A stretch of DNA of 64,000 bases. It comes from Cellvibrio sp. UBA7671. GTDB taxonomy: Bacteria > Pseudomonadota > Gammaproteobacteria > Pseudomonadales > Cellvibrionaceae. The position numbers were made by a program, and so were the translations under genes. Shown in pieces: positions 47,764-64,000 of this stretch; positions within the stretch are counted from its first letter, which is position 1, and each line of letters starts with the position of its first letter. The notes below the pieces were generated by a model that made no database searches, was not told the DNA's origin, and saw only the letters and a program-made list of their open reading frames with translations. The stretch is taken from contig DLHJ01000002.1 of assembly GCA_002483145.1 (NCBI GenBank), positions 372,001-436,000 of the forward strand, given 5' to 3'.

Positions 47764-47779
47764 CGATCGGAAGTGAAAG

Positions 47780-47806
47780 TAGCGCCTTCAGGGCGCTATT
47801 TTTTTA
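47780..47806 (+). terminator. lysS terminator
   Basis: The stem TAGCGCC / GGCGCTA with loop TTCAG is followed by TTTTTTTAT, 16 bp after the lysS stop. Confidence 0.85.
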
Positions 47807-48198
47807 TCTGTACTTTTCTATGCTCCGTCTTGGTATCTTCGAATAAAAAATATTGGTTCACGGTTCGACTTTTTTTATAGCGTCAAAATGTTAGTTTGTT
47901 CGTGTTTTTATACGGTAAATGCTTGCATTGCACAAAAGATATACTTATTCTCAGTGGCAGTCTCTTGTCTTGATTTAAGTTTGTCCTCCCGCCCGTACCG
48001 GAAATTTCCCCAGATATTGATGTTCCTTTTACCTTGCTGGTTTCTGTGTATTTGCAAATGACAACGTTGACAATAGCTGACCGGCGAATATAAAAAGGTT
48101 TTAGCCTTATGCAACCGCCATTGACGGTGAGAGATTTTTGTTGCGATTCGCCAACCCCGTTTCCTTAACTAACGATAATGAAAGGATAAATAACGTCG
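47807..48198. other. Intergenic region upstream of the chitinase
   Basis: This ~390-bp gap has no supported gene. It should hold the chitinase promoter and any regulatory sites; I saw no palindrome like the one before the mannanase. A short minus-strand frame (47908-48114) has no ribosome-binding site or family match and is not called. Confidence 0.5.
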
Positions 48199-49851
48199 AT
48201 GAAAAAAATACTTTCACTGGGTGCGCTACTCAGCGTTTCCTTAGCCTCAATGGATGCCTTTGCCGTAAGTTGTGCTGGTTTGCCACAATGGAATAGCAGC
48301 AGCGTTTATACCCAGGGCAATAAGGTCCAACATTTGAATCGTGGTTATACCGCGAATTACTGGACCCAAGCGAATAATCCGACCACTTCATCAGGACAGT
48401 GGGCACATTGGACCGACAATGGTGTTTGTGATGGCGCTACCTCCAGTGTTGCTCCAAGTTCTGTGGCCCCAAGCAGTTCACGTTCTTCAAGCTCTCGCTC
48501 ATCAACACCAAGTTCAATAGCGCCAAGCAGTGTTTCATCATCAGTTGGCAGTGTTGGTTCTTGCCCTGCCTTTGTTGCGGGCACTAGTTATGCTGCCGGT
48601 GCGGTGGTGATTAATGCCGGTGGTGCTTACACCTGCCAGGTTCCGGGTTGGTGTTCATCAACGGCAACTTGGGCTTACGCACCAGGCACGGGTACTTATT
48701 GGCAACAAGCCTGGACTGCCGGTGGCAATTGCCCGGGTACCAGTGCATCCAGTGCGAGTACATCTCGTTCCAGTTCCAGCAGCTTGGTACCGTCATCGGT
48801 TAGTTCATCCAGCGTGAGTACATCGCGCTCCAGTGTTTCATCAGCAAGCAGTAGTTCCGTAGCGCCGAGCAATGGCAGGGAATTGGTAGGCTATTGGGAA
48901 AACTGGCATTGGCCGTTGGAAGTACCAGCGACAATTCCTAATTACACTGTATTGAATATTTCATTCCCTTCAATCAATGCCAATGGTTCGCTCTATCTTG
49001 GTAATGATGGTGGCGTGCAAAACAATCCAACCGCAGAACAAATTTCTGCAGCAAAAGCCGCAGGCAAAAAAGTATTGCTGTCGATCGGCGGAGCTAATGC
49101 GACTTTTGTACTGAACAACCAAACGCATGAAGATAATTTTGTAAACTCTTTCATCGCGATTAAAGATCAGTTTGGTTTGGATGGTATTGATATCGATACC
49201 GAAAAAGGTTTGCATACCAATCCAAATGCGCAAATTAGCCAAACCAGCCCGCAATATTCAGCGGATTATCTGGTGCGTGCAATCAAGCGTTTGAAAGCGC
49301 GTTATGGTGCGAACTTCCTGCTGACTATGGCTCCTGAAACTGCACACACCATAGGTGCGAACCTGCCCAATAACTGGTTGGGTCAATACAACTGGGGTGT
49401 TTATTTGCCACTGATGAATGCATTGCGCGACGACATCAGTTGGATCCAAATGCAGTACTACAACACCGGTTCTATGCCAGGCAAAAATGGCCAGTTCTAT
49501 AACTCTGCAACGCAAGACGGTTTGGTGGCTTGGACAGAAGCGCTGATCGAAGGCTTCCCAATTGGCAGCACTGGCGTAAGTTATCTGGGCCTGCCTGCTA
49601 ACAAAGTGGTGATCGGTTTGCCAGCATCTACTTCACCCGCTGCAGCCGGTAGTGGTTACACGAATCCTACTGTTGTGAAAGCGGCAATACGTTGCTTGCG
49701 TTCCGGTGATTGCGGTAGCGGTTACAAACCAGCAAAAACCTATCCAGATCTGCGCGGTGTGATGGCATGGTCTACGTGGGAAGATGGTTTAACGGGTTAT
49801 GCTTTCTCGAATGCTCTGAAGGCTTGTGCGTTGAATAATCAATGTAACTGA
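48199..49851 (+). CDS. Secreted GH18 chitinase with two chitin-binding modules
   Basis: This 550-residue exported enzyme has a signal peptide (about 1-23, cut near AFA). A CBM5-like module (about 25-75; WNSSSVYTQGNKVQHLN, YWTQ) and a second CBM5/12-like one (about 115-175; SYAAGAVVINAGGAYTC, TYWQQAW) are joined by poly-Ser linkers, the second linker running to about 227. The GH18 domain (about 230-550) holds DGIDIDTE, catalytic Glu335 with Asp328/331/333. Layout typical of Cellvibrio and Saccharophagus chitinases. AAAGGATAAATAACGTCG precedes the ATG. Confidence 0.93.
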   Translation: MKKILSLGALLSVSLASMDAFAVSCAGLPQWNSSSVYTQGNKVQHLNRGYTANYWTQANNPTTSSGQWAHWTDNGVCDGATSSVAPSSVAPSSSRSSSSRSSTPSSIAPSSVSSSVGSVGSCPAFVAGTSYAAGAVVINAGGAYTCQVPGWCSSTATWAYAPGTGTYWQQAWTAGGNCPGTSASSASTSRSSSSSLVPSSVSSSSVSTSRSSVSSASSSSVAPSNGRELVGYWENWHWPLEVPATIPNYTVLNISFPSINANGSLYLGNDGGVQNNPTAEQISAAKAAGKKVLLSIGGANATFVLNNQTHEDNFVNSFIAIKDQFGLDGIDIDTEKGLHTNPNAQISQTSPQYSADYLVRAIKRLKARYGANFLLTMAPETAHTIGANLPNNWLGQYNWGVYLPLMNALRDDISWIQMQYYNTGSMPGKNGQFYNSATQDGLVAWTEALIEGFPIGSTGVSYLGLPANKVVIGLPASTSPAAAGSGYTNPTVVKAAIRCLRSGDCGSGYKPAKTYPDLRGVMAWSTWEDGLTGYAFSNALKACALNNQCN

Positions 49852-49870
49852 TAGCGTTAGATCGCGAGTA

Positions 49871-49908
49871 AAAAATCCCCACTGGCCGCGAGGCTAGTGG
49901 GGATTTTT
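49871..49908. terminator. Terminator after the chitinase
   Basis: The 17-bp stem AAAAATCCCCACTGGCC / GGCTAGTGGGGATTTTT (one G-U pair), loop GCGA, lies between the convergent chitinase and DUF418 genes. Confidence 0.9.
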
Positions 49909-49944
49909 TCATTTAGATATTGATGAATAAAAATTGCTGAATTG

Positions 49945-51204
49945 TTAATTATTATTTAGCTTGATTTCAACTCTGCGGTTGTAGAACGGTTGCCATTTTA
50001 AATCTGTTGCTGAACGCCACAGCCATTCGATAGGTCCATAGCTGAAATATTTCAGCCACCAACGGCAGATCAAAATTTGTGTGGCGAAAATCGCTATGCA
50101 TAACAGCGCATTCTGGCTGGGGCTAGTTAACGTAAATAAGCCAAGGCCGATGTTAAAGAATAAAAATACACCGATAACTGATTGGCTCAGGTAAACACTC
50201 AGTGCCATTTTTCCAACGCTGGCCAGAGGGCTTAATCGTGCTTCCCACTTAGGCTTTAGAATTAATAGGCTAATGCCGGTGATATAGATCAGTGTAAGGC
50301 TGGTGTTGAAAATTTCCAGAATAAACCCGCCTATCCATCCTGCAAATGGAGTATTTTGCATATCAATCTTTAATGCAAAAGTGGTTGCGCCGAAAGCTAT
50401 TCCTACTAAAACGGTTATCAGTAAAATCCATCCACTTCTTTTCAAAACCTGCTTAAAGCGCGCCTGATGTTGATCTATATTAACGAACCACTGCATACGC
50501 CCAGCAAGCATGCCTAGTAAAAAGAATCCAAGCGTAATAAAACCGCGACCGCTATTAATCTGGTAGGTAAGCTTTTCCGTTACTGCATGGATGTTATGCT
50601 GGATCATTTGAGCAAAATTGCTGTTTTTAATGATTTCATAATATGCTGCACCTGCAGTTTTGTGATCTTCCTGAATCAACTGCAATTGATCGCGTAGTAG
50701 AATGGAAATTAGTTCAGCGCATTTAGTTGGGATATTTAATACTAATAACGAACCCACAATCAGCAAGGTTTTATTACTTAGGTTGCGAAAAAACAGTAGC
50801 AAAAACCCGAGCGGAACATAAATTGTTAAAATATCAGCGCGCCAAAAAATGTGGTGTAACGCACCTATAACACCCAATATGGCCAAGCGCCAGCCGAAAC
50901 GTGTCAAGACTGGCTCATGGCGTTGGACAAGCCCTTGAATCTGGATGTGGAAACTCAAGCCAAATAAGAATGAAAAAATCGCAAAGAATTTACTAAGTAT
51001 AAAAATCATGTAAGTCCCTATTGCGATTCCGCTCCCTAAATCTTTATAAAGTTGATAAGTCTCTTGAGGCAACGGACCGCCGGCGTACCAAAAAATCATA
51101 TGCGCGTAGAGAATTCCAAACAGTGCGAAGCCACGCAGGACATCCAGAGTGACTATGCGATCCATTTTATGAATGGGATGGGGGGAGGGTACAGATGCTG
51201 TCAT
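49945..51204 (-). CDS. DUF418/YeiB-family membrane protein
   Basis: This 419-residue inner-membrane protein has about ten hydrophobic helices. The N-terminal LDVLRGFALFGILYAHMIFW and the C-terminal FSYGPIEWLWRSATDLKWQP are the hallmarks of the DUF418 family, related to acyltransferase-3-like proteins. Function unknown; some relatives are thought to act in export or surface modification. It is a single gene, convergent with the chitinase. Confidence 0.85.
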   Translation of the reverse strand: MTASVPSPHPIHKMDRIVTLDVLRGFALFGILYAHMIFWYAGGPLPQETYQLYKDLGSGIAIGTYMIFILSKFFAIFSFLFGLSFHIQIQGLVQRHEPVLTRFGWRLAILGVIGALHHIFWRADILTIYVPLGFLLLFFRNLSNKTLLIVGSLLVLNIPTKCAELISILLRDQLQLIQEDHKTAGAAYYEIIKNSNFAQMIQHNIHAVTEKLTYQINSGRGFITLGFFLLGMLAGRMQWFVNIDQHQARFKQVLKRSGWILLITVLVGIAFGATTFALKIDMQNTPFAGWIGGFILEIFNTSLTLIYITGISLLILKPKWEARLSPLASVGKMALSVYLSQSVIGVFLFFNIGLGLFTLTSPSQNALLCIAIFATQILICRWWLKYFSYGPIEWLWRSATDLKWQPFYNRRVEIKLNNN

Positions 51205-51330
51205 GGGAGATTCCTTGCGCCGACGATGGTAATTCGATCATGAAAATGACCGGTTATTCAATTTCGCATTGATAAGACTGGATGTTTTCCGGTTTTGGAT
51301 TCACCAGCCTTTACTATTTTTAATCAATCG

Positions 51331-52185
51331 TTATTTGAGCTGCAATTCCTGCGGTAATTCTACAATTACCGGCTGTTTGGTATTGGGGCAAACAAACTCC
51401 AATCGATAAGCCAGCAATTGCAAACCCGAAGGGGATTTGGTGCCGTAAAGTTTGTCGCCCACAATCGGGTGGCCGATATTGGCAAGGTGTCGGCGGATTT
51501 GATGTTTGCGGCCGGTTTCGATATGCACATCCAGCAAGGTTTTATTGTTTTCCACGCGAATTTTTTTGATATGGGTAGTGGCGGATTTGCCATCCAACTC
51601 CTCATTCAGAGTGAGCCCTGTGGTGGGGACATCGCAATCATCCACTACCCACGCCTGATAAAATTTGCGCATATCGCGCGCTTGGAAGAGAGTGGATAAT
51701 TTTGCTGCGCTTTGGCTATCGTGCGCGAGGATAATGAGCCCCATTGCATCAGCATCCAAGCGGTGTACTAAAAAACACTCGCGTTGCCGCTGCCCTTCAT
51801 TAGGTTGGCCATTCACTTCAACCCACCGTAAAATGCTACAGTGGTCGCCCCATTGGGAACCCTGCGAGAGCATACCAGCGGGTTTGAACCAAATGCTGTA
51901 ATTGCCCCCGTCATAAATCAGGTTGGCGCTTTCAGGTTTGCGTGCAAGCACCTGCTCATCGTAAAAAAACTGGATTTTAGAACCCTTGTACAACACTTTG
52001 GTGGCGCGACGTAAACGCAGTGTTTTGCCTTTGAGTGTCCACCAGACGGCGCCTTTATTCATCGCATCTTTAATGCGCTGCTTGGATAGCCCGGTGCCTT
52101 CGGCCAACAAATCCAATGCGGTTTGCTCGGCTTGGGTAACAGTGAATTCGAATTTTTGCGGTATTTCAAATGAAGTATCGGACAT
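51331..52185 (-). CDS. RluA-family RNA pseudouridine synthase
   Basis: This 284-residue enzyme has an S4-like N-terminal part (LSKQRIKDAMNKGAVWW), then the pseudouridine synthase fold (IWFKPAGMLSQG; GRKHQIRRHLANIGHPIVGD). The catalytic Asp lies in VHRLDADAMGLIILAH; the usual HRLDxxTSG motif is changed to HRLDADAMG, keeping the Asp. The RNA target is unknown. It is divergent from yaeQ, the two starts being about 30 bp apart. Confidence 0.82.
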   Translation of the reverse strand: MSDTSFEIPQKFEFTVTQAEQTALDLLAEGTGLSKQRIKDAMNKGAVWWTLKGKTLRLRRATKVLYKGSKIQFFYDEQVLARKPESANLIYDGGNYSIWFKPAGMLSQGSQWGDHCSILRWVEVNGQPNEGQRQRECFLVHRLDADAMGLIILAHDSQSAAKLSTLFQARDMRKFYQAWVVDDCDVPTTGLTLNEELDGKSATTHIKKIRVENNKTLLDVHIETGRKHQIRRHLANIGHPIVGDKLYGTKSPSGLQLLAYRLEFVCPNTKQPVIVELPQELQLK

Positions 52186-52214
52186 TATTTAGCTTTAAAT
52201 AAGTGAGAAAAATT

Positions 52215-52748
52215 GTGGCAGTGAAGGCAACTATTTATAAGGCGAACCTGAGCTTGTCGGATATGGATCGCAATGTGTTTGGCAATTTCAACCTGACCGT
52301 CGCCCTCCATCCCTCTGAGACTGTTGAGCGCATGATGGTGCGTATTCTAGCCTTTTGTTATCGCGCTGCGGAAAATTTAACCTTTACTAAAGGCCTATCC
52401 TCCATGGAGGAGCCGGATTTATGGTTGAAGCACGATAACGGCACTATCCTTGAGTGGATTGAGGTAGGGCAGCCAGCACCGGATCGCTTGAAAAAAGCAT
52501 CGGGCCAAGCGCAAGCGGTGAAAGTGTTTAGCTATGGCCGCGGTATGGATGTCTGGTGGAAGACCAACAGCGCTGCCATCCGTGCCTTGCCCAAAGTGAG
52601 CGTCCACCATTTTGCTGCTGATGAATTACAGGCCCTGACGGCATTGGCAGATAAAACGATGAACCTGACAGTCACAATTACCGAAACTATCGCCTATGTT
52701 TCCACAGCGACTGAGAATGTGGCGATTAGCTTGCGTGAGATGGAATAA
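52215..52748 (+). CDS. yaeQ: YaeQ family protein
   Basis: This ~177-residue protein matches YaeQ end to end: VKATIYKANLSLSDMDRN, HPSETVERMMVRILAFCYRA, LEWIEVGQPAPDRLKKASGQ. The family has a restriction-endonuclease-like fold of unclear function. GTG 52215 is chosen because it gives the family N-terminus; an upstream in-frame GTG at 52203 is possible. It is the last host gene before the island. Confidence 0.88.
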   Translation: MAVKATIYKANLSLSDMDRNVFGNFNLTVALHPSETVERMMVRILAFCYRAAENLTFTKGLSSMEEPDLWLKHDNGTILEWIEVGQPAPDRLKKASGQAQAVKVFSYGRGMDVWWKTNSAAIRALPKVSVHHFAADELQALTALADKTMNLTVTITETIAYVSTATENVAISLREME

Positions 52749-52753
52749 CCCCT

Positions 52754-52840
52754 ATGAAAACTCCAGAAATGAATGCTCCCTTATTAGCGATTGTTGATAT
52801 AACCCTCGATAACGCTCAGCAGTTTTTAATTGTTATCTAG
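52754..52840 (+). pseudogene. Small frame after yaeQ, possibly cut by the island
   Basis: A 28-codon frame MKTPEMNAPLLAIV... starts 5 bp after yaeQ and then becomes unlike protein. Its NAPLLAIV stretch resembles SLPLLAVI at 62365-62388, on the other side of the island, where a short frame continues ARAKPKDGAIFRVSQ and stops. I infer one small gene split by insertion, or a duplicated junction. Evidence is thin. Confidence 0.35.
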
Positions 52841-52846
52841 GCATTT

Positions 52847-52890
52847 AACTGTAACCATTTGTTTACAGTTGTCCAATACAGCTTTATTCT
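52847..52890 (+). promoter_or_regulatory. Recombinase-operon promoter with overlapping dyad
   Basis: AACTGTAA (52847-52854) and TTACAGTT (52863-52870) form an 8-bp inverted repeat around an 8-base spacer. It overlaps a likely -35 box TTTACA (52862-52867), with TATTCT (52885-52890) 17 bp further as -10. The dyad could be an operator for the operon's own HTH protein, or a recombinase core site at the island edge. Confidence 0.5.
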
Positions 52891-52922
52891 CGGTCTTTCT
52901 TCAGTCGTAGGAGAGGTTGATT

Positions 52923-54071
52923 ATGGAGTTGCTTTTCGCTAGCGATGAGTTTGAAATTCATGGCGTTTCCTACCCTGGATTTCCGCTTATATTTGATCGG
53001 CATATGGATTTGGTATGTGAAGCATTCGACTTCTTAGTTAAGTACTGTATAAAACGAGGGAGAGTCCAAAGCGCACATTCATGGAAGGCATATGGTCAAA
53101 GTATCTATGATTTTTTAAGTTTCCTTGAAGTTAATAATGAGTGGGATTGGAGAAATACCAATCTAAATCGTGACGACACGATACTGGTTTCTTACCGGGA
53201 CTGGTCTTTAGGTACGCTGGGTTTAAAACCATCTACAGTAAATTTTCGCTTGCGGATTATTAATGCATTTTACCGCCATGCTTTACTTAAGGGGTGGATA
53301 AGCTCCCTTCCTTATCAGCTTGAACGTGTTGTTGTCAAACAAGCTAAAGGATTTCTGGTTCATACGAGTTCTAAAGGGAACTCAATGTTGTCCCCAGATG
53401 TGATGTTAAAATCTCATGGCGCTCGTATTCGAGTGTTGAATCTTGTTCAGATAAAACAATTCCTATCTGCGGTAAAAAATCCTACACAAAAGCTTATCGC
53501 TCGCTTGGCTGTTCAGGCAGGACTGAGGAAGGATGAGCTAGTTACTTTTCCGGTTAAATATATACGCTCGCCACGTTCGTTGACAGATGTGTCTAGTCAT
53601 ATCAGTGTGGAGTTAAATCCTGCTGATATGCACACCAAAGGAAGTAAGGCGCGTACCATACACGTCCCTCTCGGTTTAATGGCTGATTTATGGGAATATG
53701 TACTTCACGAAAGAAATAAGCTTGAAAAACAATCAGGCATGAAGCAAGCTCAATTGTTCCTAAATAGATTTGGCCATCCTTATGCGCATGGTGGTTTATC
53801 GCTTAATAAACTTTGGAATAATTTAGAGTTACCATTCAAAGTTTTCCCTCATATTTTGAGGCATTCCTATGCAACCCACACGCTAAGCGAATTGAGAAAG
53901 AAAAAAGATTGCGGGGTGGATCCACTTATGTATGTGCGTAATCGCCTTGGGCATTCCAGCATATTAACAACACAAAAATATTTACATTTTTTAGATGATA
54001 TCGATGATGATTTAATGAATGATTTTCAAGCTGAGATAGATCGGTTTTCGATGGGATCTGCGGATGAATAA
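52923..54071 (+). CDS. Tyrosine recombinase 1 (intact catalytic set)
   Basis: This ~382-residue site-specific recombinase has an N-terminal SAM-like core-binding domain (about 15-140; SAHSWKAYGQSIYDFLSFLE) and a catalytic domain with Arg202 (GLRKDEL), His310-x-x-Arg313 (HILRHSYAT), His344 (LGHSS) and nucleophile Tyr353. All canonical residues are present, so it should cut and rejoin DNA. ATG 52923 follows AGGAGAGG. It overlaps the next gene by 8 bp, so the recombinases are made together. Confidence 0.9.
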   Translation: MELLFASDEFEIHGVSYPGFPLIFDRHMDLVCEAFDFLVKYCIKRGRVQSAHSWKAYGQSIYDFLSFLEVNNEWDWRNTNLNRDDTILVSYRDWSLGTLGLKPSTVNFRLRIINAFYRHALLKGWISSLPYQLERVVVKQAKGFLVHTSSKGNSMLSPDVMLKSHGARIRVLNLVQIKQFLSAVKNPTQKLIARLAVQAGLRKDELVTFPVKYIRSPRSLTDVSSHISVELNPADMHTKGSKARTIHVPLGLMADLWEYVLHERNKLEKQSGMKQAQLFLNRFGHPYAHGGLSLNKLWNNLELPFKVFPHILRHSYATHTLSELRKKKDCGVDPLMYVRNRLGHSSILTTQKYLHFLDDIDDDLMNDFQAEIDRFSMGSADE

Positions 54072-55722
54072 AAAGAATTTTACATCTGGAATAGTAAAGG
54101 ATCTAGCGCTTGATGTGCCAAGCGTTTCAGGACAATCGAGCATATCTCCAATTAAAATTCTCCCTGCGGTAACTGTAGTCAAATTTCCTAAGCACACTCA
54201 TTCTTCTCGGAAATTTGATTTTTCAATATATTATCGTACCGGATTTGATGAAATTGTCATCCGTACTCAGGAGGTTATAGAGCATCTTGTGAATGAAAGT
54301 GTTTCGACTCGCGGAGCCAGTTTAAGTATCGCTACAATTCAAGGCTACTGTGATGGTGGATTAGTATACTTTTTTCAATTTTGTAAAATTGTTGCATCAT
54401 CTATAAAGCGAGAATTATATTTTAATGACATTGGCAGAGAATTTATAGAGCACTTTATAGTGTACCTAAGCCAATCTGGCCTCAAATCAACAAGCCAAAA
54501 AAATGCATATAGTAAAGTGAAGGCTTTACTGATGATAATCGGTAGGCAAGGTCTTATGGGGGCGGACTACTTTAACTATTTCCCCAGAAACCCATATCCC
54601 GGAAACCATAGAAAAGCGAAGGGGGAGAGTCCACTATCGACACAAGACATCAGTACCTTAACTAGGTGCCTAAAGAAAGAACTCGATCGAATATCAAAAG
54701 ATACCGGTGAAATCAACTCGTATGATCTAACAATATGTATATTGGCGATAGCTATTCGTACAGGAATAAATAAAACCCCTCTCCTTGAATTGCAGGCCGA
54801 CTGTATTCAACCACATCCATTGAAACATGATAGGCGTTTGCTTATAAGCTTCAAGCGCAGAGGGAAATCATTTCATTTTTCGGCATTGAGAAAAACACAA
54901 GATATAGCCGCGCTGCATACCGTAATGCTGGATACAATTTCTATTGTTGAGATGATTGTTGCGCGAAACGAAAGGGCGCGAGTCAAATCCAATACAAACA
55001 GACTCTTTGCATACACAGTATCCAAGCTTAAGCCCAAGACCAATTCTAGGCTCCGGTCCAGCAGCAAGGCTACATTTATCTCCTCATCTACGCTGGAGCG
55101 TTTGACCACAGAGGTCATTGAAAGGTGTAATTTAATAGACTCTGAGGGAAAATATCTGGTTGTTAATATCGGTAAATTGAGAAAAACCTTTATTAATAGA
55201 ATATGGTCTCTATCAGGGCAGGATGCGATCTTAACAGCTGCTATGGGTGGGCATAGCATAAAGGTTTCAAATGATCATTATCTGGAGGCGCCTCCTGAAG
55301 CGGAAAGAAACTTTAATCTTCTAGGTGAGATTCGAGTAAAGGAATTGCTGGGCGACGAGGGAAGCGATGGCACTGAGCGTACACCAATTGCTCAGTGTGA
55401 GGATCCTAGATATGGTCATCGGGCTCCTAAAAATGGGAATTATTGCACGTCATTTTTATCTTGCTTTCAGTGTAAAAGTTTTGTGGTGACTGAAAATGAC
55501 TTGTACCGGATATTCAGTTTATATTGGTTGCTAATCAAACAGAGATCTATTGTGGGGGCAAAACGATGGGGGCGCTATTATGCAAATATAGTTAAGATCA
55601 TTGATAATGAAATAGCACCGAAATTCTCCAGCAAAAAAATTTCTGAAATACGTAAGTATGCTCACGATTCTCCGCATCCCTACTGGAGAAGCATCGATCT
55701 TCTAGAGTTGGAGGATAGCTAA
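54064..55722 (+). CDS. Tyrosine recombinase-like protein 2 (GmtY-like, altered site)
   Basis: This 552-residue member of the recombinase trio has the fold's landmarks: a box I region (IRTGINKTPLLEL), box II GKLRKTF, GGHSIKVSN and final Tyr406. Arg373, His397 and Tyr406 are kept, but the box I Arg position is Asn236 and the box II His is Gly370. A cysteine-rich segment (about 445-480, ending SCFQCKSF) could bind zinc. It resembles the second protein of gamma-mobile-trio or Tn554-like sets by position and size; name not certain. It starts inside the preceding gene. Confidence 0.75.
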   Translation: MNKKNFTSGIVKDLALDVPSVSGQSSISPIKILPAVTVVKFPKHTHSSRKFDFSIYYRTGFDEIVIRTQEVIEHLVNESVSTRGASLSIATIQGYCDGGLVYFFQFCKIVASSIKRELYFNDIGREFIEHFIVYLSQSGLKSTSQKNAYSKVKALLMIIGRQGLMGADYFNYFPRNPYPGNHRKAKGESPLSTQDISTLTRCLKKELDRISKDTGEINSYDLTICILAIAIRTGINKTPLLELQADCIQPHPLKHDRRLLISFKRRGKSFHFSALRKTQDIAALHTVMLDTISIVEMIVARNERARVKSNTNRLFAYTVSKLKPKTNSRLRSSSKATFISSSTLERLTTEVIERCNLIDSEGKYLVVNIGKLRKTFINRIWSLSGQDAILTAAMGGHSIKVSNDHYLEAPPEAERNFNLLGEIRVKELLGDEGSDGTERTPIAQCEDPRYGHRAPKNGNYCTSFLSCFQCKSFVVTENDLYRIFSLYWLLIKQRSIVGAKRWGRYYANIVKIIDNEIAPKFSSKKISEIRKYAHDSPHPYWRSIDLLELEDS

Positions 55723-55724
55723 TT

Positions 55725-57569
55725 ATGATAGAGTCTAATCAAGTCGATGTCAGCCATATGTATACGCGTTTATGGTTTGAAAAAAACGAGGAAGTTCCTC
55801 TGGAAAGTATAATTACCTCCCAGCGAACCATCGATGGAATGTACGTTACATTAAGTTGTTATGGTGATGATGTATGGTTTTTCCCTGATGTACTTTTCCC
55901 ATCATCGATTGCTGAATGTAATAGAAAAATAGATTTCAATATCATAAAAAATAAAAAATTCATTCCCGCTTTGAAGCTGGCTATGATGCGCTACTACTAT
56001 CTAGGGCGGCCGGGTTATAAGCGGCCGAGAGGAACCAGCTTGATTAAGGTGTTTCGTCACTGTGCGGTATTTCTTAACTATCTAGCAGAAAAAAATATAC
56101 TTGAATTAAGTGAGGTATCCGCATTTGTTGGGGTTCAGTACGCAGAGCACTCTAGAATGCAACCTGGTTTGAAAGCAGAGCGCAACACCCCGGTTTCAGT
56201 ATCTCAAAGATTGATTGCGGTAGAGTCACTATACGAACTTCTTTTAAATAGTAGATACGCTTTCAGTCACCCTTGGCCAGATGCCACTACGGGGCAACTC
56301 GCTGGGCCACCCCCTGTTCCAGGAGGGAAAACCCTAATAATTCCTGATGAGCATCTTCGGGTGCTAATGAAAAAATCAACTTCACTTTTATCAAATTCAG
56401 ATGATATTTTATTAAATATGAATCGATTGTCCTGGTGGGTTGAGAAAAAATATAGTCAGGAAATCATTGACCATTTGTTAAGTTTATGTGGTTATCATGG
56501 TGGGGCCAAAGGCTTAAATGAAGAGATTTTTCACTTACGATCGGCTTGTGCTTTAATAATTTTAATTACGACCGGCATTCGGGCTCATGAGATATTGAGC
56601 TTGGAAGTTGGTTGTTGTTTCAGCACTACGGATGAGGATGGAACTAAATACTGTTGGATTAGAGGTGTGTCTACCAAGACTGGAGTAGGAGCTACCGAGT
56701 GGCTATGCCCAGCGATTTGTCATCAGGCGGTTATTGTGTTGGAAAAAATTTCCAAGCCATTAAGGAATATGTTGTCGGAAAATGTGATGTCTAGCCAAGT
56801 CGATATTTCACCGTTGAAGGCATCAAAAAATTATCAAAATAAAAACAAACTATTTCTATTGAAACCTTTAAACAAAAAAATATCTATAAGGCCTCTAAAT
56901 TTTCCAACATTTCAGGCGGAGCTAAAAAAATTTGTTTTGCATTGTGGTGTGCAGTGGAATTTTTCTACCCATCAGTGCAGGCGGACATTCGCTGTATATG
57001 TTGTGAAAAATGCTTTAGGTGATCTACGTTATCTTAGAGATCATTTTAAACATTGGTCTATTGATATGACTGCGATGTATGCTGAAAATGAGCTGCAAGA
57101 TAAAGAGCTTTTTGGTGAAATTTATGTCGCTGCTTGCGATGAGAAATATAAGAAAATACGTCATTGGTTAGATCCAGATACTCCACTTTCTGGTGGTATG
57201 GCGCAAACTATAAAGGTATTTCGTAGTAAAGGTGAATCAATTAGATATTATAAAAATCACTCGGAAATGGTCCAAAATGTGTCTGAGAGTATTTATCTGC
57301 GTGCCACTGGGGTGGCTTGGTGTACTGCCGATCTTGGAGGGTGTGATGGGGGTAAAGCATTTGATAATACGAAATGCGGAGACTGTAGGCATTCCGTTAT
57401 CGATGATAGATTTCTACCTCGGTGGAATGCAATTTACAATCAGCAGCTTGAGTTAATCCAATTAGAGGACATTGGTATCGCTGGAAAGGATTTGGCGCAT
57501 CGCGCATTGGATCGTTGTAAAAAAGTATTGACTGAGTTAGGTGCTCCCTTAGAGGTGTTTGAGGCGTAA
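55725..57569 (+). CDS. Tyrosine recombinase 3 (GmtZ/TnpB-like)
   Basis: This 614-residue recombinase has catalytic residues Arg286 (TTGIRAHEIL), His416-x-x-Arg419 (THQCRRTFA), His443 (KHWSID) and nucleophile Tyr452. A C-terminal cysteine cluster (TADLGGCDGG, TKCGDCRHS; about 530-560) looks like a zinc site. Large size and the cysteine tail recall Tn554 TnpB and the third recombinase of gamma-mobile-trio sets. It starts 2 bp after the second gene, and the small HTH gene starts 1 bp after its stop. Confidence 0.82.
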   Translation: MIESNQVDVSHMYTRLWFEKNEEVPLESIITSQRTIDGMYVTLSCYGDDVWFFPDVLFPSSIAECNRKIDFNIIKNKKFIPALKLAMMRYYYLGRPGYKRPRGTSLIKVFRHCAVFLNYLAEKNILELSEVSAFVGVQYAEHSRMQPGLKAERNTPVSVSQRLIAVESLYELLLNSRYAFSHPWPDATTGQLAGPPPVPGGKTLIIPDEHLRVLMKKSTSLLSNSDDILLNMNRLSWWVEKKYSQEIIDHLLSLCGYHGGAKGLNEEIFHLRSACALIILITTGIRAHEILSLEVGCCFSTTDEDGTKYCWIRGVSTKTGVGATEWLCPAICHQAVIVLEKISKPLRNMLSENVMSSQVDISPLKASKNYQNKNKLFLLKPLNKKISIRPLNFPTFQAELKKFVLHCGVQWNFSTHQCRRTFAVYVVKNALGDLRYLRDHFKHWSIDMTAMYAENELQDKELFGEIYVAACDEKYKKIRHWLDPDTPLSGGMAQTIKVFRSKGESIRYYKNHSEMVQNVSESIYLRATGVAWCTADLGGCDGGKAFDNTKCGDCRHSVIDDRFLPRWNAIYNQQLELIQLEDIGIAGKDLAHRALDRCKKVLTELGAPLEVFEA

Positions 57570-57570
57570 A

Positions 57571-57981
57571 ATGACCGTACCCGCATCTGAAGTTACTAGA
57601 AAAATTATCCGTCAAGCATATATCAGAATTTTAAATGGTCGACCCAAAATCGTAGATAAAGGGCGCCGCATCAGTATCGCATCGGTGGCCGAAGAGTCGG
57701 GGCTGAGTCGTGCAACAATTCATAAGTATTATCCTGATATGGTAGATAAAATAAGAACCGCTTCAGGAAAGGCTTATCTTGATGTAAATGATCAAAAAAT
57801 TTCACAACTTAAGGTGGAGCAAATTAAAAATAAAGAGCTTCGTGCTGAGCTGGGTGCGCTGAAGAAAAACTTGGAGGTTTTAGGGTCAAAATATGCTGCA
57901 TTGCTCCTTAAATACGAGGAGGTTCAGGCAATTATAAATGGAAATAATGTAAGCATTTTCAATGTTAATGTTAGGAATTAG
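57571..57981 (+). CDS. Small HTH and coiled-coil protein (GmtX/TnpC-like)
   Basis: This ~136-residue protein has an N-terminal helix-turn-helix (SIASVAEESGLSRATIHKYY, about 33-52) and a C-terminal coiled coil (about 70-125, KVEQIKNKELRAELGALKKN). It ends the recombinase operon, as tnpC does in Tn554 and gmtX in gamma-mobile-trio elements. A role as DNA-binding helper of recombination, or as regulator of the operon, is inferred. ATG 57571 is 1 bp after the previous stop; an in-frame TTG at 57559 would overlap. Confidence 0.72.
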   Translation: MTVPASEVTRKIIRQAYIRILNGRPKIVDKGRRISIASVAEESGLSRATIHKYYPDMVDKIRTASGKAYLDVNDQKISQLKVEQIKNKELRAELGALKKNLEVLGSKYAALLLKYEEVQAIINGNNVSIFNVNVRN

Positions 57982-58126
57982 TCTGCGTAAATCATCGTTA
58001 TCCGAAATCACTAGAATTATATTGGTTTACGATTTTTTTACATGAAAAAGTCTGATTTAATTATCAATACTGTTCTTGGATAGAGTGCGGTCGATCACTA
58101 AATGATGAATCTCTTGATTCAAGTGT

Positions 58127-59551
58127 TTATAAGGGGCTTCTGGATTCGCGCGTATAAAGTCGATGTAATTGCAGCAACTCCTGGCGAAACCGACCAAATA
58201 CGTTGATGGTGGTGTCATAGGATTGTGCCAACATTGAAATATGAGTGGGTGGCAGATCGTCCGTGTCAGGTTGCGATTCGACCACAGGCATATTTTCAAA
58301 AATAATTTCCGTAATTTCTTCAAATTGTTGCGGTTCTTGTAGTTTGATCGCTAGCGGCTTGTCACCGTCGCTATTCGGCATGGTCTCGCGTCGTATGGTC
58401 GCAGACTCTGGTATTTCCTCCGCTACACGATTCGCGTATTCCACCAAATTGGGTTCAGCCGGTAGATACAAATAACTTTCACCGGGAATATCTCCCATTC
58501 GTAAAACACGCCCCAATACTTGCCGAAAATGCAATTCAGTTTTGACGCGGGTCAGGTGACAGCACACGCGCAAACGTGGAATGTTTGTGCCTTCGCTTAC
58601 CATCCCTACAGAAATAATCCAGGGCTGGGTGCTGTTTCTAAAGGTATGGATATTTCCGTGGGCGTCCTCATCCATATATGTAGCAACACAGGCGCGTTGG
58701 CCCAAGTAGCGCTCCAGTAATGCCGCAATTTTATAGGCATGATCTACCGATGCTGCCACGATAAGGCCACCAGCATTCTGATGCTGCTTGCGAATTTGCA
58801 TCAACTTTTTAGACGATTGTTTTAACAGATACACAATCAGTGCATCGTTATCAATTAGTTGTTGGTAGGAGCAATCCGATAGTTTGAGTAACTCGGCGAA
58901 AGATGAGTATCTCTCAGTGGTATTACCGCATCTCACGATGATGCGGTCATTGTCCACCAGCGCGATGCTAGGTGCCCGACACACATTTTCTTGGATAGCC
59001 TGCGCCATTCCATACACAAAATCACAGCGGATTTTGTTGTGTTGGCAGTAACTGGATAAGGCGATGGGTATTCGGTCGGAGCGCCAAGGTGTGCCGGTTA
59101 AAGCAATGGTATAAGTAGCGCGCCCCTGGATATGTTGGATGATGGTTTGACCCCATGCATTGGCATTCTCAAGGTTGTCTCCGGCGCAGTGATGGATCTC
59201 ATCAAAAATTACCAAAACGCGATGGGTTTGAAAAAGTGCCCAAAAAGCGTCTTCCAAACTCAGCATCGATTGATATGTAAAGGACTGGCCCTTTGACCCA
59301 AGACGACCATCCATCCGGCAATGGATATGGGTTTCAAGCGCTTGTTGAAAATCTGATGACACAATAATGGAGGGGGAAAAGCATAGTACTAGGTCGATCA
59401 TTCCCAACTGAAAAAGTTGTTGAGCCAATGTCGCCGCCATGACTGTCTTGCCAGCACCGGGTGTGGCGAGGCACAGGAAGTGATTATCTTCATTCCTGAA
59501 TTTCACCAGAGCCTGTTCAACGCACCTGGATTGCCAGCGCCTCAACTTCAT
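58127..59551 (-). CDS. SF2 DEAD/DEAH-box helicase (island cargo)
   Basis: This 474-residue superfamily 2 helicase begins with a Q-motif-like LRRWQSRCVEQAL. Walker A is ATPGAGKT (about 29-36), motif II DEIHH (about 116-120), motif III-like ALTGTPWRSDR and motif VI QVLGRVLRMGD. There is no nuclease domain; the C-terminal 100 residues are of unknown fold. It follows the winged-helix gene by 3 bp and is surely co-translated with it. Position in a mobile island suggests a role in defence or replication interference, not proven. Confidence 0.85.
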   Translation of the reverse strand: MKLRRWQSRCVEQALVKFRNEDNHFLCLATPGAGKTVMAATLAQQLFQLGMIDLVLCFSPSIIVSSDFQQALETHIHCRMDGRLGSKGQSFTYQSMLSLEDAFWALFQTHRVLVIFDEIHHCAGDNLENANAWGQTIIQHIQGRATYTIALTGTPWRSDRIPIALSSYCQHNKIRCDFVYGMAQAIQENVCRAPSIALVDNDRIIVRCGNTTERYSSFAELLKLSDCSYQQLIDNDALIVYLLKQSSKKLMQIRKQHQNAGGLIVAASVDHAYKIAALLERYLGQRACVATYMDEDAHGNIHTFRNSTQPWIISVGMVSEGTNIPRLRVCCHLTRVKTELHFRQVLGRVLRMGDIPGESYLYLPAEPNLVEYANRVAEEIPESATIRRETMPNSDGDKPLAIKLQEPQQFEEITEIIFENMPVVESQPDTDDLPPTHISMLAQSYDTTINVFGRFRQELLQLHRLYTRESRSPL

Positions 59552-59554
59552 GCG

Positions 59555-60097
59555 CTAAACCTTTTCCCTTGCCAATAGGCTTTCCAGAGCTTTCACACGT
59601 CCAAGCAACTTGGAGCATTTGTCGCGGGACTGGTTATAAAGGGGCTGCACATCATCCCTTAAATCGGGCATTTCACTGCAAATTGCATCATATTCCTCGG
59701 TTTCACCCATCGCAGACAGCATTTCCAATTTATGCTGATTCAACCGTTCTTGCAGGTTTTGGCGCGGGTTATTTTTTGAGGTTGGAGCTTTGATTGGTGG
59801 TGCTTCTGGAGTGGACACAGTAGGTGTAAGTACTGATGGTTTAGATGATTTAGTAAAAAACTGGGGGGTTAACCGATACAAGGGCCAGCCACCCTCCACG
59901 ACAACACGAGTCAGATTCCCATTATCGATAAGGCGCAGCATATTGCGATAAACGAACTGGCGAGCCGCCTTTTTGGAGCTATGAAGGCATGCCGGATCGT
60001 TTAAATAGGCTTCCGTGAGATCGTGTACGGTGAACTCGCGGTTTACCAGAGTTGATAGTGCCGAGAGCAGTCCGGACTTAACGGTGAGAGATTTCAT
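59555..60097 (-). CDS. Winged-helix and coiled-coil partner of the helicase
   Basis: This ~180-residue protein has an N-terminal winged-helix-like domain (about 1-85; SALSTLVNREFTVHDLTEAY, FVYRNMLRLIDNGNLTRVVV), a Pro/Ser linker and a C-terminal helical region (about 115-178; RQNLQERLNQHKLEMLSAMG). No enzyme motif is seen. ATG 60097 is chosen over an upstream start because that would cross the divergent promoter. It likely gives the helicase a DNA target or senses one; this is inference from the tight pairing. Confidence 0.68.
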   Translation of the reverse strand: MKSLTVKSGLLSALSTLVNREFTVHDLTEAYLNDPACLHSSKKAARQFVYRNMLRLIDNGNLTRVVVEGGWPLYRLTPQFFTKSSKPSVLTPTVSTPEAPPIKAPTSKNNPRQNLQERLNQHKLEMLSAMGETEEYDAICSEMPDLRDDVQPLYNQSRDKCSKLLGRVKALESLLAREKV

Positions 60098-60162
60098 GAT
60101 AGAGATTGACGCCTCATGTCTCGAATTTCGCGCCATTCTATCCTGTCTCTATCATCGAGACA
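60097..60162. promoter_or_regulatory. Divergent control region with dyad operators
   Basis: Between the minus-strand winged-helix gene and the plus-strand XRE gene, TGTCTC (60144-60149) and GAGACA (60157-60162) form a perfect 6-bp dyad ending at the XRE start. Further TGTCTC (60117-60122) and AGAGA (60101-60105) half-sites lie upstream, and TGATAGAGA (60097-60105) is matched by TCTCTATCA at 60146-60154. This fits autoregulation of both arms by the XRE protein. Confidence 0.55.
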
Positions 60163-60426
60163 ATGAAATCATCTCCGTACTCACCTCACTACGAAAAGCT
60201 TCGTCTCTGGCTAAAAAAGCAACGGGAGGCAAGTGGTTTGACACTCCGCGAGGCCTCGCTCGCAATGGGGCGACATCATTCTGTGCTAGGCAAGATGGAG
60301 CAGGATCGACGGAAAATTGAAGTGCTTGAGTTTGTGAGGTACTGCCAGGTACTGGGTGTCGATCCCCATGAGGGTTTGGAGATCCTTGTTCACTCTCTTC
60401 AAGACGAGCACGATGCATCGCAATAA
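60163..60426 (+). CDS. XRE-family transcriptional regulator
   Basis: This ~87-residue protein is a compact Cro/CI-type helix-turn-helix: LRLWLKKQREASGLTLREAS then LAMGRHHSVLGKMEQDRRKI, with RYCQVLGVDP. It is too small to have an effector domain. ATG 60163 has only a weak GAGA upstream and touches the dyad. Likely controls the divergent helicase pair and perhaps itself. Confidence 0.85.
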   Translation: MKSSPYSPHYEKLRLWLKKQREASGLTLREASLAMGRHHSVLGKMEQDRRKIEVLEFVRYCQVLGVDPHEGLEILVHSLQDEHDASQ

Positions 60427-60500
60427 AAATAGCCGCATCCATCTCCACGCCAAATGATCTACACTGGCTTCTCCTGAGTAACTTCCTTTTATTGTGCGAC

Positions 60501-60959
60501 ATGGATTTACGACCATCGGTTGTCCTATTTCGAAAAGCAATCCTGAAAGCAAAAGTGGATGGATTCCAATTTGATTCACTGGATTCTTTCCCAGTTAATT
60601 GCTGCGAGTTTTCCTCGTATTTATTGGCAAAATTTCTGATTGAAAAAATTGGCTTATCATCCCTGAAAATAGTCACGGGCGAAAATCGACATAAAAAATC
60701 CCAGCGGCATATTTGGATAAAGTTTGATGATACTGACATTGATATTACCGCCAACCAATTTTCATCGACAGATAGAACGGTCATTGTTGAAGCGCATAGT
60801 CAGTGGCATCAACGATTTGAAATAATTAAAGTTGAAAACCCCAGTCCGAAGTTGACACAGCTCAACAAAGAAGCCAAATTCGCATTGCTATATGATTACA
60901 AAAAAATCCTTAGCTGCCTCGCCTATAACGATGATTCAGTTCGAACGATTCAAAAATAA
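60501..60959 (+). CDS. Small protein with a Cys-His-Asp (papain/transglutaminase-like) pattern
   Basis: This ~152-residue protein has Cys35 at the start of a helix (NCCEFSSYLLAKFLIEKIG), His70 (RHIWIKF) and Asp81 (DIDITANQF). This order and spacing is the pattern of papain-like folds of the transglutaminase/NlpC type. A peptidase, transamidase or related activity is inferred, not established. It lacks a signal peptide. It lies in a plus-strand row with the next two genes, 74 bp after the XRE gene. Confidence 0.62.
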   Translation: MDLRPSVVLFRKAILKAKVDGFQFDSLDSFPVNCCEFSSYLLAKFLIEKIGLSSLKIVTGENRHKKSQRHIWIKFDDTDIDITANQFSSTDRTVIVEAHSQWHQRFEIIKVENPSPKLTQLNKEAKFALLYDYKKILSCLAYNDDSVRTIQK

Positions 60960-60977
60960 TTGCGCAATGGAGAAGAT

Positions 60978-61499
60978 ATGATTTCCGATATGACCAAAGC
61001 AAATATTCTGATTGCGATAGCAGAAGGCCAGTCGGTCTCTGAAGCCGCGAAGCCCTATGGACTTAGCTATGCCCAAGCGAGGGGTGCGTTATCTCGATTT
61101 TGCCCGCAGTTGAAATTACGCTGGAATCTTGAAGAAGTCCGGGCCAATCCAAAGAAATATATTGACGCAGCACTAGCGATAGTTGCCTCACCTAAAAATG
61201 CGCTCCGTAGGGTATTGCGGGATGATTTGGTATTTCAGTTGAAGTTACGGTCACCCAATGAACTTACGCCGCAGTATGTCTCTAACATTGCCGCAGAAAC
61301 CTTGCTTTCACATGGTGTTACCGAAACCGGACTTGTAGAAATACAAGAGTGGTTGCTTGCCAATGGATTGTCGTGCAAGCGCAAATTGCCGGAAACGGAT
61401 GAATATATGCGGGTGGTTCAAAAAGCCATTATATTACTGGATGCCTTCGGATTGGATGTCTCCCACCCTAAAGCACAACTGAAAAATATTGATGAATAG
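60978..61499 (+). CDS. HTH-containing protein of unknown function
   Basis: This ~173-residue protein has an N-terminal helix-turn-helix-like stretch (AEGQSVSEAAKPYGLSYAQA) and a helical remainder with no recognised domain. ATG 60978 follows GGAGAAGAT. It lies between the Cys-His-Asp gene (19 bp) and the Abi_C gene (23 bp), so the three are probably co-transcribed and may work together. Confidence 0.6.
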   Translation: MISDMTKANILIAIAEGQSVSEAAKPYGLSYAQARGALSRFCPQLKLRWNLEEVRANPKKYIDAALAIVASPKNALRRVLRDDLVFQLKLRSPNELTPQYVSNIAAETLLSHGVTETGLVEIQEWLLANGLSCKRKLPETDEYMRVVQKAIILLDAFGLDVSHPKAQLKNIDE

Positions 61500-61522
61500 T
61501 AAAAGAAATTTGGGAGAAGTTT

Positions 61523-62335
61523 ATGGCGCATATGATACCTAACTCAGTTATTGGTGCTGTGTCTTCAGTGCTTGCTGAGTACTATCAGAGTCATTCCAAA
61601 TTAAATGTGTTGCTCATGAGTGCAGGCGCACCCGGTGAGCCACCGGAAGGCAATCTGGAAACAAAGTGCAGTGCATGGCTTAAACGTTGCAATGAAGACG
61701 AATCGCTAAATCCGCTCGCTGTTCTCGGATTGATCATCCAGAAATTTATGGATTTAAACCCAGTCAACTCCCAAATTGCTGAAGGTCAACAACGAATTGC
61801 GGAAAGTCTTGCCAGAAATCAGTTGAGTTATCAGTTAAATGGTTTCATTACCTTTGCTGGAGCAAGCCTTGCTACAAAGTCGCTAGCGGATTTTTTTAAG
61901 GCTGGTGATTTTGCATCTGTTGAAGCTGAATTTAATCGCGCGGTATCCCAATTAGATGGTGATCCCCATGCAGCGATTACTGCTGCAAGCTCCATCATTG
62001 AGGCCTTGTGTAAAACCTACATCGAAACCTTCACTCTGGAAATGCCTGCCAAACAATCTATTGCCCCTCTATGGAAAGTCGTTCAGGGCCATTTGGGATT
62101 AAGCATCGATCCCACACTGGAAGATGACCAGAAAAAAATTCTTCAGGGATTGTCATCCATCATTGACGGCATTGGGGCTTACCGAACCCATATAGGCTCA
62201 GCTCATGGCCGAGGCTTAGAGCCTCCAACCATTGCGGTGATGGAGGCACGTCTTGCTGTGAATGCATCGCATACTCTGGTGACATTTTTAATGGAGCGCT
62301 GGCATAGCCGCTTGAATCAAAACTATACCCGCTGA
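61523..62335 (+). CDS. Abortive infection protein with C-terminal Abi_C domain
   Basis: This 270-residue protein has a helical N-terminal part (about 1-145) and a C-terminal domain (about 147-262) that matches Abi_C: HAAITAASSIIEALCKTYIE, ILQGLSSIIDGIGAYRTHIG, then SAHGRG and LAVNASHTLVTFLMERW. Abi_C proteins are associated with phage-induced growth arrest; the N-terminal part is not recognised. GGGAGAAG precedes the ATG. It ends the cargo, 340 bp before hemN. Confidence 0.82.
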   Translation: MAHMIPNSVIGAVSSVLAEYYQSHSKLNVLLMSAGAPGEPPEGNLETKCSAWLKRCNEDESLNPLAVLGLIIQKFMDLNPVNSQIAEGQQRIAESLARNQLSYQLNGFITFAGASLATKSLADFFKAGDFASVEAEFNRAVSQLDGDPHAAITAASSIIEALCKTYIETFTLEMPAKQSIAPLWKVVQGHLGLSIDPTLEDDQKKILQGLSSIIDGIGAYRTHIGSAHGRGLEPPTIAVMEARLAVNASHTLVTFLMERWHSRLNQNYTR

Positions 62336-62574
62336 ATTCGCATGACATGCAAGATGGCCAGCAATCATTACCATTATTGGCAGTAATTGCACGGGCTAAG
62401 CCAAAAGATGGCGCAATCTTCCGTGTGTCTCAGTAGATCTTGCTTTGTTGTTTGGCCAACCTCCAGGTTTGACTTCCCGGGCTCTAGTTGACAATCCCAA
62501 GCTACTTTCAAAATAAAAGTGGTTCGGACCAAATAAAATTTTAATGCATCAAATTATCCGGCGTGCCCAATAAA
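62336..62574. other. Right end of the island and flank
   Basis: This stretch carries a short frame (62347-62436) whose SLPLLAVI resembles the frame after yaeQ, and a near-dyad GCAAT..ATTAC / GTAATTGC (62361-62390). The right junction of the island probably lies here. No complete gene is seen. Confidence 0.45.
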
Positions 62575-62674: not shown

Positions 62675-64000
62675 ATGGCTTATTTTCAAGCTCCACTTGA
62701 ATGGAATTCGGAACTTATTAAGCAATATGACTTAACCGGGCCGCGTTATACGTCATATCCTACTGCGCCACAATTTAATGAAAGTTTCTCTGACGCTAAT
62801 TTTAAAGCAGCGGTCGAGAGGAGTAACGCGAGCGGAAGGCCGCTGTCGCTTTATTTTCATATTCCTTTTTGCGATACCCTTTGCTTTTATTGTGGATGCA
62901 ACAAAGTAGTTACTAACAATAAAGGCCGTGCGCAACCTTATTTGGAGCGTATGGAGCGGGAAATGGCGATGCAGTCAGAGTTATTTGATTCCGCGCGACT
63001 TGTAACTCAATTACATTGGGGTGGTGGTACCCCCACTTTTATCAGTGATGATGAAATGTCTTGGCTGATGGCTGCGACACGCAAGCACTTTACATTGCTG
63101 GATGATGACGCAGGTGAGTACTCTATAGAGATTCATCCAGGGCGCGTATCGACTAACACTATGGGGCATTTGCGTAAACTTGGTTTTAACCGAGTCAGTA
63201 TGGGTGTGCAGGATTTTGATTCCCAGGTTCAAAAAGCAGTAAATCGTTATAACAGTGTTGAAGATGTAAGCGCCTTGGTAAAGGCACTACGCCAACAAGA
63301 CTATCGCTCGATCAGTATGGATTTAATTTATGGCCTGCCAATGCAAACTTTGAGCAGTGTCGGTGAAACATTAAATAGAGTGATAGAACTTTCCCCCGAC
63401 CGCTTGTCATTATTTAATTATGCCCATATGCCGCATCTTTTTAAGAGCCAGGAATTGATTAACGAGCGTGATCTTCCCTCAGCAGAGCAAAAACTTGAAC
63501 TTTTGTATATGGCGATAGATCGTTTGCAGGGCGCTGGGTATATTTATGTTGGCATGGATCATTTCGCTAAACCGGATGATAGTTTGGTACAAGCACAAAG
63601 AGCAGGAAAGTTACAACGAAATTTTCAGGGCTACTCCACTCATGGCGATTGCGATTTGCTCTCTTTTGGGGCTTCTGCGATTAGCGCATTCGGCAATGTC
63701 TTTATACAAAATGCTAAGCGCGTTGAGCATTATCAAAAATCTATTGACTCAGGTGCAATCCCTTTTATTAAAGGTATTGAATTAACCAGCGAAGATCTTT
63801 TGCGGCAGTTTGTAATTAATCAGTTAATTTGTCATTTCCATTTGAATTTTGCTTCTGTTGATAGTGCATTTTGTCTGGATTCACGCAGTCATTTCGCTAA
63901 AGAATTATTGCAGTTGAAGCCAATGGTTGATGATGGGTTGCTCACGATTAACGAGGAGGGAATTGAAGTTCTCAATGCTGGACGGTTGCTTATTCGTAGA
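62675..64000 (+). CDS. hemN: Oxygen-independent coproporphyrinogen III oxidase HemN (3' partial)
   Basis: This radical-SAM enzyme converts coproporphyrinogen III to protoporphyrinogen IX without oxygen in heme synthesis. The frame is open from ATG 62675 through the window end (442 codons; the full family length is about 457). RYTSYPTAPQF is the family's N-terminal motif and the cluster cysteines are in HIPFCDTLCFYCGCNK; LHWGGGTPTF and SMDLIYGLP follow. The full frame shows no disruption. Confidence 0.95.
   Translation, partial: MAYFQAPLEWNSELIKQYDLTGPRYTSYPTAPQFNESFSDANFKAAVERSNASGRPLSLYFHIPFCDTLCFYCGCNKVVTNNKGRAQPYLERMEREMAMQSELFDSARLVTQLHWGGGTPTFISDDEMSWLMAATRKHFTLLDDDAGEYSIEIHPGRVSTNTMGHLRKLGFNRVSMGVQDFDSQVQKAVNRYNSVEDVSALVKALRQQDYRSISMDLIYGLPMQTLSSVGETLNRVIELSPDRLSLFNYAHMPHLFKSQELINERDLPSAEQKLELLYMAIDRLQGAGYIYVGMDHFAKPDDSLVQAQRAGKLQRNFQGYSTHGDCDLLSFGASAISAFGNVFIQNAKRVEHYQKSIDSGAIPFIKGIELTSEDLLRQFVINQLICHFHLNFASVDSAFCLDSRSHFAKELLQLKPMVDDGLLTINEEGIEVLNAGRLLIRR

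Follow-up and report, generated by a model that had tools for sequence, protein, structure and literature searches.

The window analysed here is a 64,000-nucleotide stretch of Cellvibrio sp. UBA7671 (G000:C9:372001-436000, where G000 is the source genome; C9 positions are contig coordinates, all others window positions). It contains the left part of a large element that splits cnoX, a gene for a protein of the thioredoxin-tetratricopeptide repeat (TPR) type. At the left boundary, the chromosomal gene yaeQ (52203..52748, plus strand; Pfam YaeQ, 1e-66) is followed by a 26-codon 5' remnant of cnoX (52754..52832, plus strand), which aligns with the cnoX starts of relatives, and by the left end of the element (52833..52858, no strand assigned), an imperfect inverted repeat of the right end with 9 of 12 bases matching. 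Further inward lie a four-gene recombination operon (52917-57981), a helicase unit, a short gene row with an Abi_C domain protein, and hemN (62675..64000, plus strand; NCBIfam hemN, 5.6e-169), the first anaerobic cargo gene, which runs past the window end. We read the whole as a 65,203-bp site-specific integrative element with its recombination operon at the left end, most likely a GInt (probability roughly 0.8). It belongs to a known kind of element and has clear limits, and its cargo and target-sparing right end are noteworthy.

The limits of the element are defined by its target. The match of cnoX to relatives ends at 52832, 26 codons in, and the host part resumes at C9:490042; the gene is split into C9:424754-424834 and C9:489996-490838, the second part being 85% identical to the protein of a relative. 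Thus, the element extends far beyond the window, spanning C9:424833-490035 with its right end at window-equivalent 118035. The initial annotation had recognized a mobile element with a multi-recombinase operon set between yaeQ and hemN. The element, its operon and the left flank hold, and both ends and the empty site have been located. In contrast, hemN had to be discarded as right flank and is part of the cargo, since cnoX resumes 65.2 kb from the left end. The description of an A+T-rich block applies to the operon (39.7% G+C) but not to 58127-62335, which at 46.1% is close to window 1-52000 (46.8%); the whole element has 46.0% G+C. Its last 200 bp are 63% A+T vs 54% for the whole element.

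Gene yaeQ was detected in 20 of the 21 genus genomes, G000 among them, and its locus was compared in 11 other genus genomes, one of which ends at a contig edge (G010) and one of which carries the element (G001). In all nine informative relatives, yaeQ is followed by an intact cnoX (286-297 amino acids). The initial annotation would have been refuted if every close relative carried these genes at this position; it was not, as the site is empty in 9/9. As judged by eye, the host sequences on either side of the element can be joined with no base lost or gained relative to these genomes, and six bases, CCATCG, separate the right end from host cnoX. The spacers TAATTG and CCATCG have three of six bases in common by eye. 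The likeness between the first 12 bases and the reverse complement of the right end is reached by 0.035% of 20,000 random island pairs, and the gapped alignment score of the two ends by 0.055% of random pairs.

The operon consists of a catalytic tyrosine recombinase of 384 amino acids (52917..54071, plus strand; PF00589, 1e-10), a recombinase-fold protein of 552 amino acids (54064..55722, plus strand), a large catalytic tyrosine recombinase of 614 amino acids (55725..57569, plus strand; PF00589, 3e-9), and a small helix-turn-helix (HTH)/coiled-coil protein of 140 amino acids (57559..57981, plus strand), recognized by homology to plasmid quartets. All four genes named in the initial annotation are therefore present, but only the first and third match PF00589 above cut-off, and the second of the three supposed tyrosine recombinases is devoid of the box I Arg and the HxxR His. 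Its sole match above cut-off is the core-binding PF13102 (5e-6). In 7/7 aligned homologues of this protein, Asn replaces the box I Arg and the HxxR His is missing, while the HxxR Arg and the Tyr are retained; in the third protein, R, H-R, H, and Y are conserved in 7/7. The four proteins are 30-53% identical to quartets of Methylophaga, Vibrio pVb1796, and a P. aeruginosa plasmid, with values of 36-53% for the first gene product and 34-51% for the fourth against three plasmid quartets. A structure model of the second protein (pLDDT 52) was too poor for structure search. Sequence searches of the PDB with profiles of the second protein, the helicase partner, and the helicase returned nothing at the limits used, and PHROGs yielded matches only to integrase, helicase, and one protein of unknown function.

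The third recombinase shares 99% identity with its counterpart in Cellvibrio sp. UBA8526; among the 21 genus genomes, the full-length gene occurs only in G000 and G001, and eight further genomes of 96 searched have short or weak matches. The second-protein profile detects two of 369 class-sample genomes (G000 included) and four of 144 family genomes (G000 and G001 included). Members also occur in Betaproteobacteria, namely in Massilia and Duganella and on plasmids of Burkholderia, Paraburkholderia, and Cupriavidus. Comparison of pVb1796 with an empty IncC plasmid reveals a 9,278-bp insertion with inverted ends and three bases common to both junctions. By eye, a TGTAAC box lies ~18-24 bases inside the ends of this insertion and of both Cellvibrio ends; the box is absent from some other left regions compared. 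This 9.3-kb element of the IncC plasmid pVb1796 (L107 6668-15946) belongs to the operon family and carries an integron integrase and resistance genes.

In a second species, G001, the element occupies the identical site in cnoX. Between the two genomes, identity on the left host side is 81.8% in 47600-52202, with values of 87.0% for yaeQ and 76.2% for the remnant of cnoX. From 52833 onward, it is 100% over the first 84 bases of the element and 99.6% in the operon. It then declines through the helicase unit (98.6%), the Abi row (97.9%), hemN (95.1%), and narK (93.5%). At the right end (G001:C255), identity is 93.5-94.9% within the element and then 82.6% in the host. As G001 is a draft genome of 85% completeness, the middle of its element is not read in one piece. 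The neighbours of its right end differ from those in G000. By eye, they include a metal-efflux pair; in PADLOC, a DUF5131 protein matches PDC-M30B and two further proteins match PDC-M30A, one of them with a Pfam GMT-like winged HTH domain. This PDC-M30 candidate, DUF5131 plus two TcmP-like genes near the right end (L173 3008-6224), lies where G000 has nap genes.

By predicted function, the cargo is mainly devoted to nitrate respiration and anaerobic metabolism, and defence-like genes are a small part of it. Models for NarG, NarH, NarI, NapA, the NapC/NirT family, HemN, and MoaA are matched at or above cut-off, as are those for the anaerobic ribonucleotide reductase (nrdD), UbiU, and UbiV. Pfam further detects COX1/NorB-type, NnrS, and NorQ-type domains, and NarK- and NarX/NarQ-type matches are strong yet below curated cut-offs. 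By eye, we take further cargo genes to be presumably those for azurin, NsrR, NapB, NapD, NarJ, NorC, NorD, NrdG, ackA, pta, gdhA, moeA, and RIC; none of the cargo genes was recognized by eye as nirS, nirK, or nosZ. Within the genus, narG is found in 5/21 genomes and napA in 4/21. G000 has a single narG and a single napA match genome-wide, both inside the island. The stretch C9:434569-463094 is 91.2% identical to a block elsewhere in G013, whose yaeQ flank is just 72-74% identical to that of G000, so the block has moved between lineages. Among the open-literature matches listed, none described nitrate respiration carried by an island of this kind.

At its right end, the element supplies cnoX with a new start. 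An ATG at C9:489960 opens a 25-codon frame that continues through the spacer into cnoX and yields a 293-residue protein. With this in-frame head, cnoX would be re-headed rather than lost. Between G000 and G001, the head shows three differences in the element and one in the spacer, all of them synonymous, and the single difference in the next host codon is synonymous as well. Random change gives four of four synonymous differences with P ~0.007, and three in the element alone with P ~0.04. The 300 bp upstream of the head contain 17 mismatches and 8 gap columns between the two genomes.

Between the operon and hemN, the helicase unit is made up of an SF2 helicase of 474 amino acids (58127..59551, minus strand; ResIII, 8e-14; 38-50% identical to 6 homologues), a partner of 193 amino acids (59555..60136, minus strand) that has no Pfam match and adjoins the helicase in plasmids, and a divergent XRE-type HTH regulator (60163..60426, plus strand; HTH_3, 6e-7). 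What had been taken for a helicase pair is thus a helicase with an adjoining partner gene, in a unit of HTH, partner, and helicase. This layout recurs, with the divergent HTH gene, a partner of ~175-240 amino acids, and a helicase of ~455-490 amino acids. In 32 of the 34 plasmid records with a partner match, the helicase match lies directly beside it (among the best 40 of 56 helicase records), and the helicase is present in 31 of 144 family genomes. We examined 20 helicase loci of 38 matches listed, two of them on short contigs, and found the partner in 19/20, the HTH gene in 18/20, and a recombinase-type gene in 12/20. The latter was found in 0/22 control stretches (Fisher P 1e-5), a generous contrast since the controls (the yaeQ locus of nine genomes and the hemN locus of one, eight stretches around the nar block of G013 and G019, two island and two window stretches) are not random places. 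The unit adjoins the quartet of G501, and the Vreelandella quartet is 7 kb away from a copy of it. In PADLOC, the unit matches PbeA weakly and in part, and the structure model of the partner (pLDDT 62) was too poor for structure search. The unit recurs beside recombinases on islands and plasmids, with copies at window 58127-60426, L117 10804-13113, L064 19023-21365, and in L140-L159. In six Cellvibrionaceae loci (L147, L148, L149, L150, L153, L159), large recombinase genes (703-887 amino acids) lie within 10 kb of the unit; most of these have a second recombinase-type gene nearby, and some are SE-like in size.

The Abi row comprises a protein of 155 amino acids with a weak YunG-like match (60492..60959, plus strand; PF24585, 0.0055, below cut-off), an HTH-like protein of 179 amino acids (60960..61499, plus strand; HTH_29, 0.0009, below cut-off) without a plasmid match at 1e-3, and the Abi_C domain protein of 270 amino acids (61523..62335, plus strand). 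The Abi_C gene of the initial annotation is confirmed by Pfam (1.4e-17), and PADLOC AbiJ matches the C-terminal part (2.6e-11). The Abi_C protein has matches in 127 plasmid records. G013 likewise has this row beside hemN, at another chromosomal place and with the Abi_C gene shortened (L071 11458-12970).

These genes bear on the proposal that the block is an undescribed defence island. Several observations fit this view, namely the Abi_C gene, the proximity of the helicase unit to recombinases (12 of 20 loci vs none of 22 controls), the PDC-M30 candidate in the G001 copy, and GInts carrying defence in E. coli, as reported in the part of PMC10121019 consulted. However, respiratory or anaerobic functions account for most of the named genes in the 65 kb, and none of 10 window proteins has a full-length match to a named PADLOC system. 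We have therefore given up defence as the main reading and consider it improbable that the block is above all an anti-phage island; the Abi_C protein and the helicase unit appear defence-like by name or company only. An even lower probability attaches to a smaller element, consisting of operon and helicase unit, that inserted beside an anaerobic block and reached its 65-kb extent by later rearrangement. Such a history would agree with G013, where the helicase unit and the shortened Abi row adjoin hemN at another place, together with the nar block and beside a different 304-residue recombinase. Identity to G001 points the same way, being 99.6% over the operon but 93-95% over hemN and narK. Yet the ends are alike as inverted repeats and meet at one place in cnoX without base loss, and G001 has the identical right end at cnoX, which makes this history very improbable.

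The single 65.2-kb element is likely a GInt by name. GInts are defined by ginABCD and form the Tn6571 subfamily, and according to the accessible part of PMC5385486 they share with the Cellvibrio element a four-gene operon at one end with cargo directly after the fourth gene, a recombinase-type protein without the first Arg (a feature that is not GInt-specific), large gene-cluster cargo that can reach 70 kb or more, insertion at the start or end of genes, and gamma- and betaproteobacterial hosts. Nitrate-respiration cargo and a cnoX target were not met in that part of the source, and the re-heading right end also differs from what it describes. The Tn554 family (tnpABC), invoked by the initial annotation, has two catalytic recombinases and a small protein as well, but the additional non-catalytic second gene of the four sets the Cellvibrio operon apart; the kinship is loose, with a DUF6262 match of 0.0023, below cut-off. 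No operon protein matched a Tn554-named model, or one named for the gamma-mobile-trio (GmtX, GmtY, or GmtZ) in Pfam or NCBIfam, the presence of such models in the libraries being unverified.

SEs come close in organization: they share the order catalytic, non-catalytic, catalytic, small protein, as well as inverted ends and a 6-bp spacer. Genes 1 and 3 remotely match SE-6945, the element of pSEA1 (5e-14 and 2e-11), and SEs are mutually just 20-27% alike in the portion of the literature seen. Nevertheless, the second protein lacks clear homology to the Tfp of the two SEs compared. Its blastp E values are 0.036 for SE-6945 (WP_176703888.1) and 0.33 for the pAQU1 SE, as opposed to 2e-46 to 4e-139 for four other non-SE quartets, and its profile matches to SEs are remote (4.5e-7 and 8e-5). 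Moreover, our element measures 65.2 kb, whereas the largest of 37 SEs in the published excerpt reaches 58.5 kb, and it has betaproteobacterial relatives; the consulted part of PMC10214605 reports GInts but not SE homologues from Betaproteobacteria. Based on the second-protein sequence and these betaproteobacterial members, we favour GInt over SE and reject SE membership as quite improbable. A separate, unnamed lineage with SE gene order, identical in extent but neither GInt nor SE, would account for the non-catalytic gene standing second in 8/8 non-SE quartets, which match one another far better than the two SEs. We regard it as unlikely, given that the GInts described in the published parts available agree in sizes, in the extent of their cargo, and in a host range spanning Beta- and Gammaproteobacteria.

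Several points nonetheless weigh against the GInt reading and the role given to its ends. No record of an authenticated ginABCD was found for comparison. The non-catalytic gene is second, as in SEs, while the GInt papers, as far as consulted, give GinC as non-catalytic; the gene orders of SEs and GInts differ according to the same part of PMC10214605, so by order the element may not be a GInt. Arg and His are missing from the second gene product, and the full motif is present in the third, in all eight of the aligned non-SE quartets, but the pAQU1 SE has the identical pattern, its Tfp lacking the Arg too. Consequently, this pattern cannot separate GInt from SE, and the lost Arg was dropped as a GInt marker. 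Direct repeats, described for GInts as imperfect and 10-17 nt long in the part of the literature available, were not found, there being no common 10-base word between the two junctions. An in-frame upstream start is not rare by chance, since 36% of places picked at random in the island and 23% of right ends after shuffling allow one, and cnoX of G001 has an NN gap at codon 36.

Taking the element as a GInt, we propose that the first and third gene products, as the catalytic recombinases, would join the ends into a circle with a 6-bp spacer, assisted by the non-catalytic recombinase-fold protein and the small HTH protein. The circle would have inserted 26 codons into cnoX, leaving the left gene part beside yaeQ, and the start codon and 25-codon frame of the right end, completed by the spacer, would run in frame into cnoX. 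If expressed, the cargo would provide the host with membrane and periplasmic nitrate reductases and NO reductases as well as anaerobic molybdopterin, haem, ubiquinone, and deoxynucleotide synthesis. The Abi_C row and the helicase unit would be passengers that may defend or stabilize the element; a defence role of the helicase unit is a guess, control of the element another. We suggest tentatively, and with some doubt, that the right end carries a selected cnoX head that makes insertion tolerated and that the helicase unit is a common island accessory serving the element in defence or recombination control.

The element offers a clean test case for target choice, target sparing, and cargo collection, with both ends, the empty site, a second species, and differing cargo at hand. 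The recurring unit of HTH, partner, and helicase is a concrete candidate for a function that hitch-hikes on recombinase islands. For Cellvibrio, our findings suggest a route by which a multi-recombinase element could carry a nitrate-respiration package as a unit between species.

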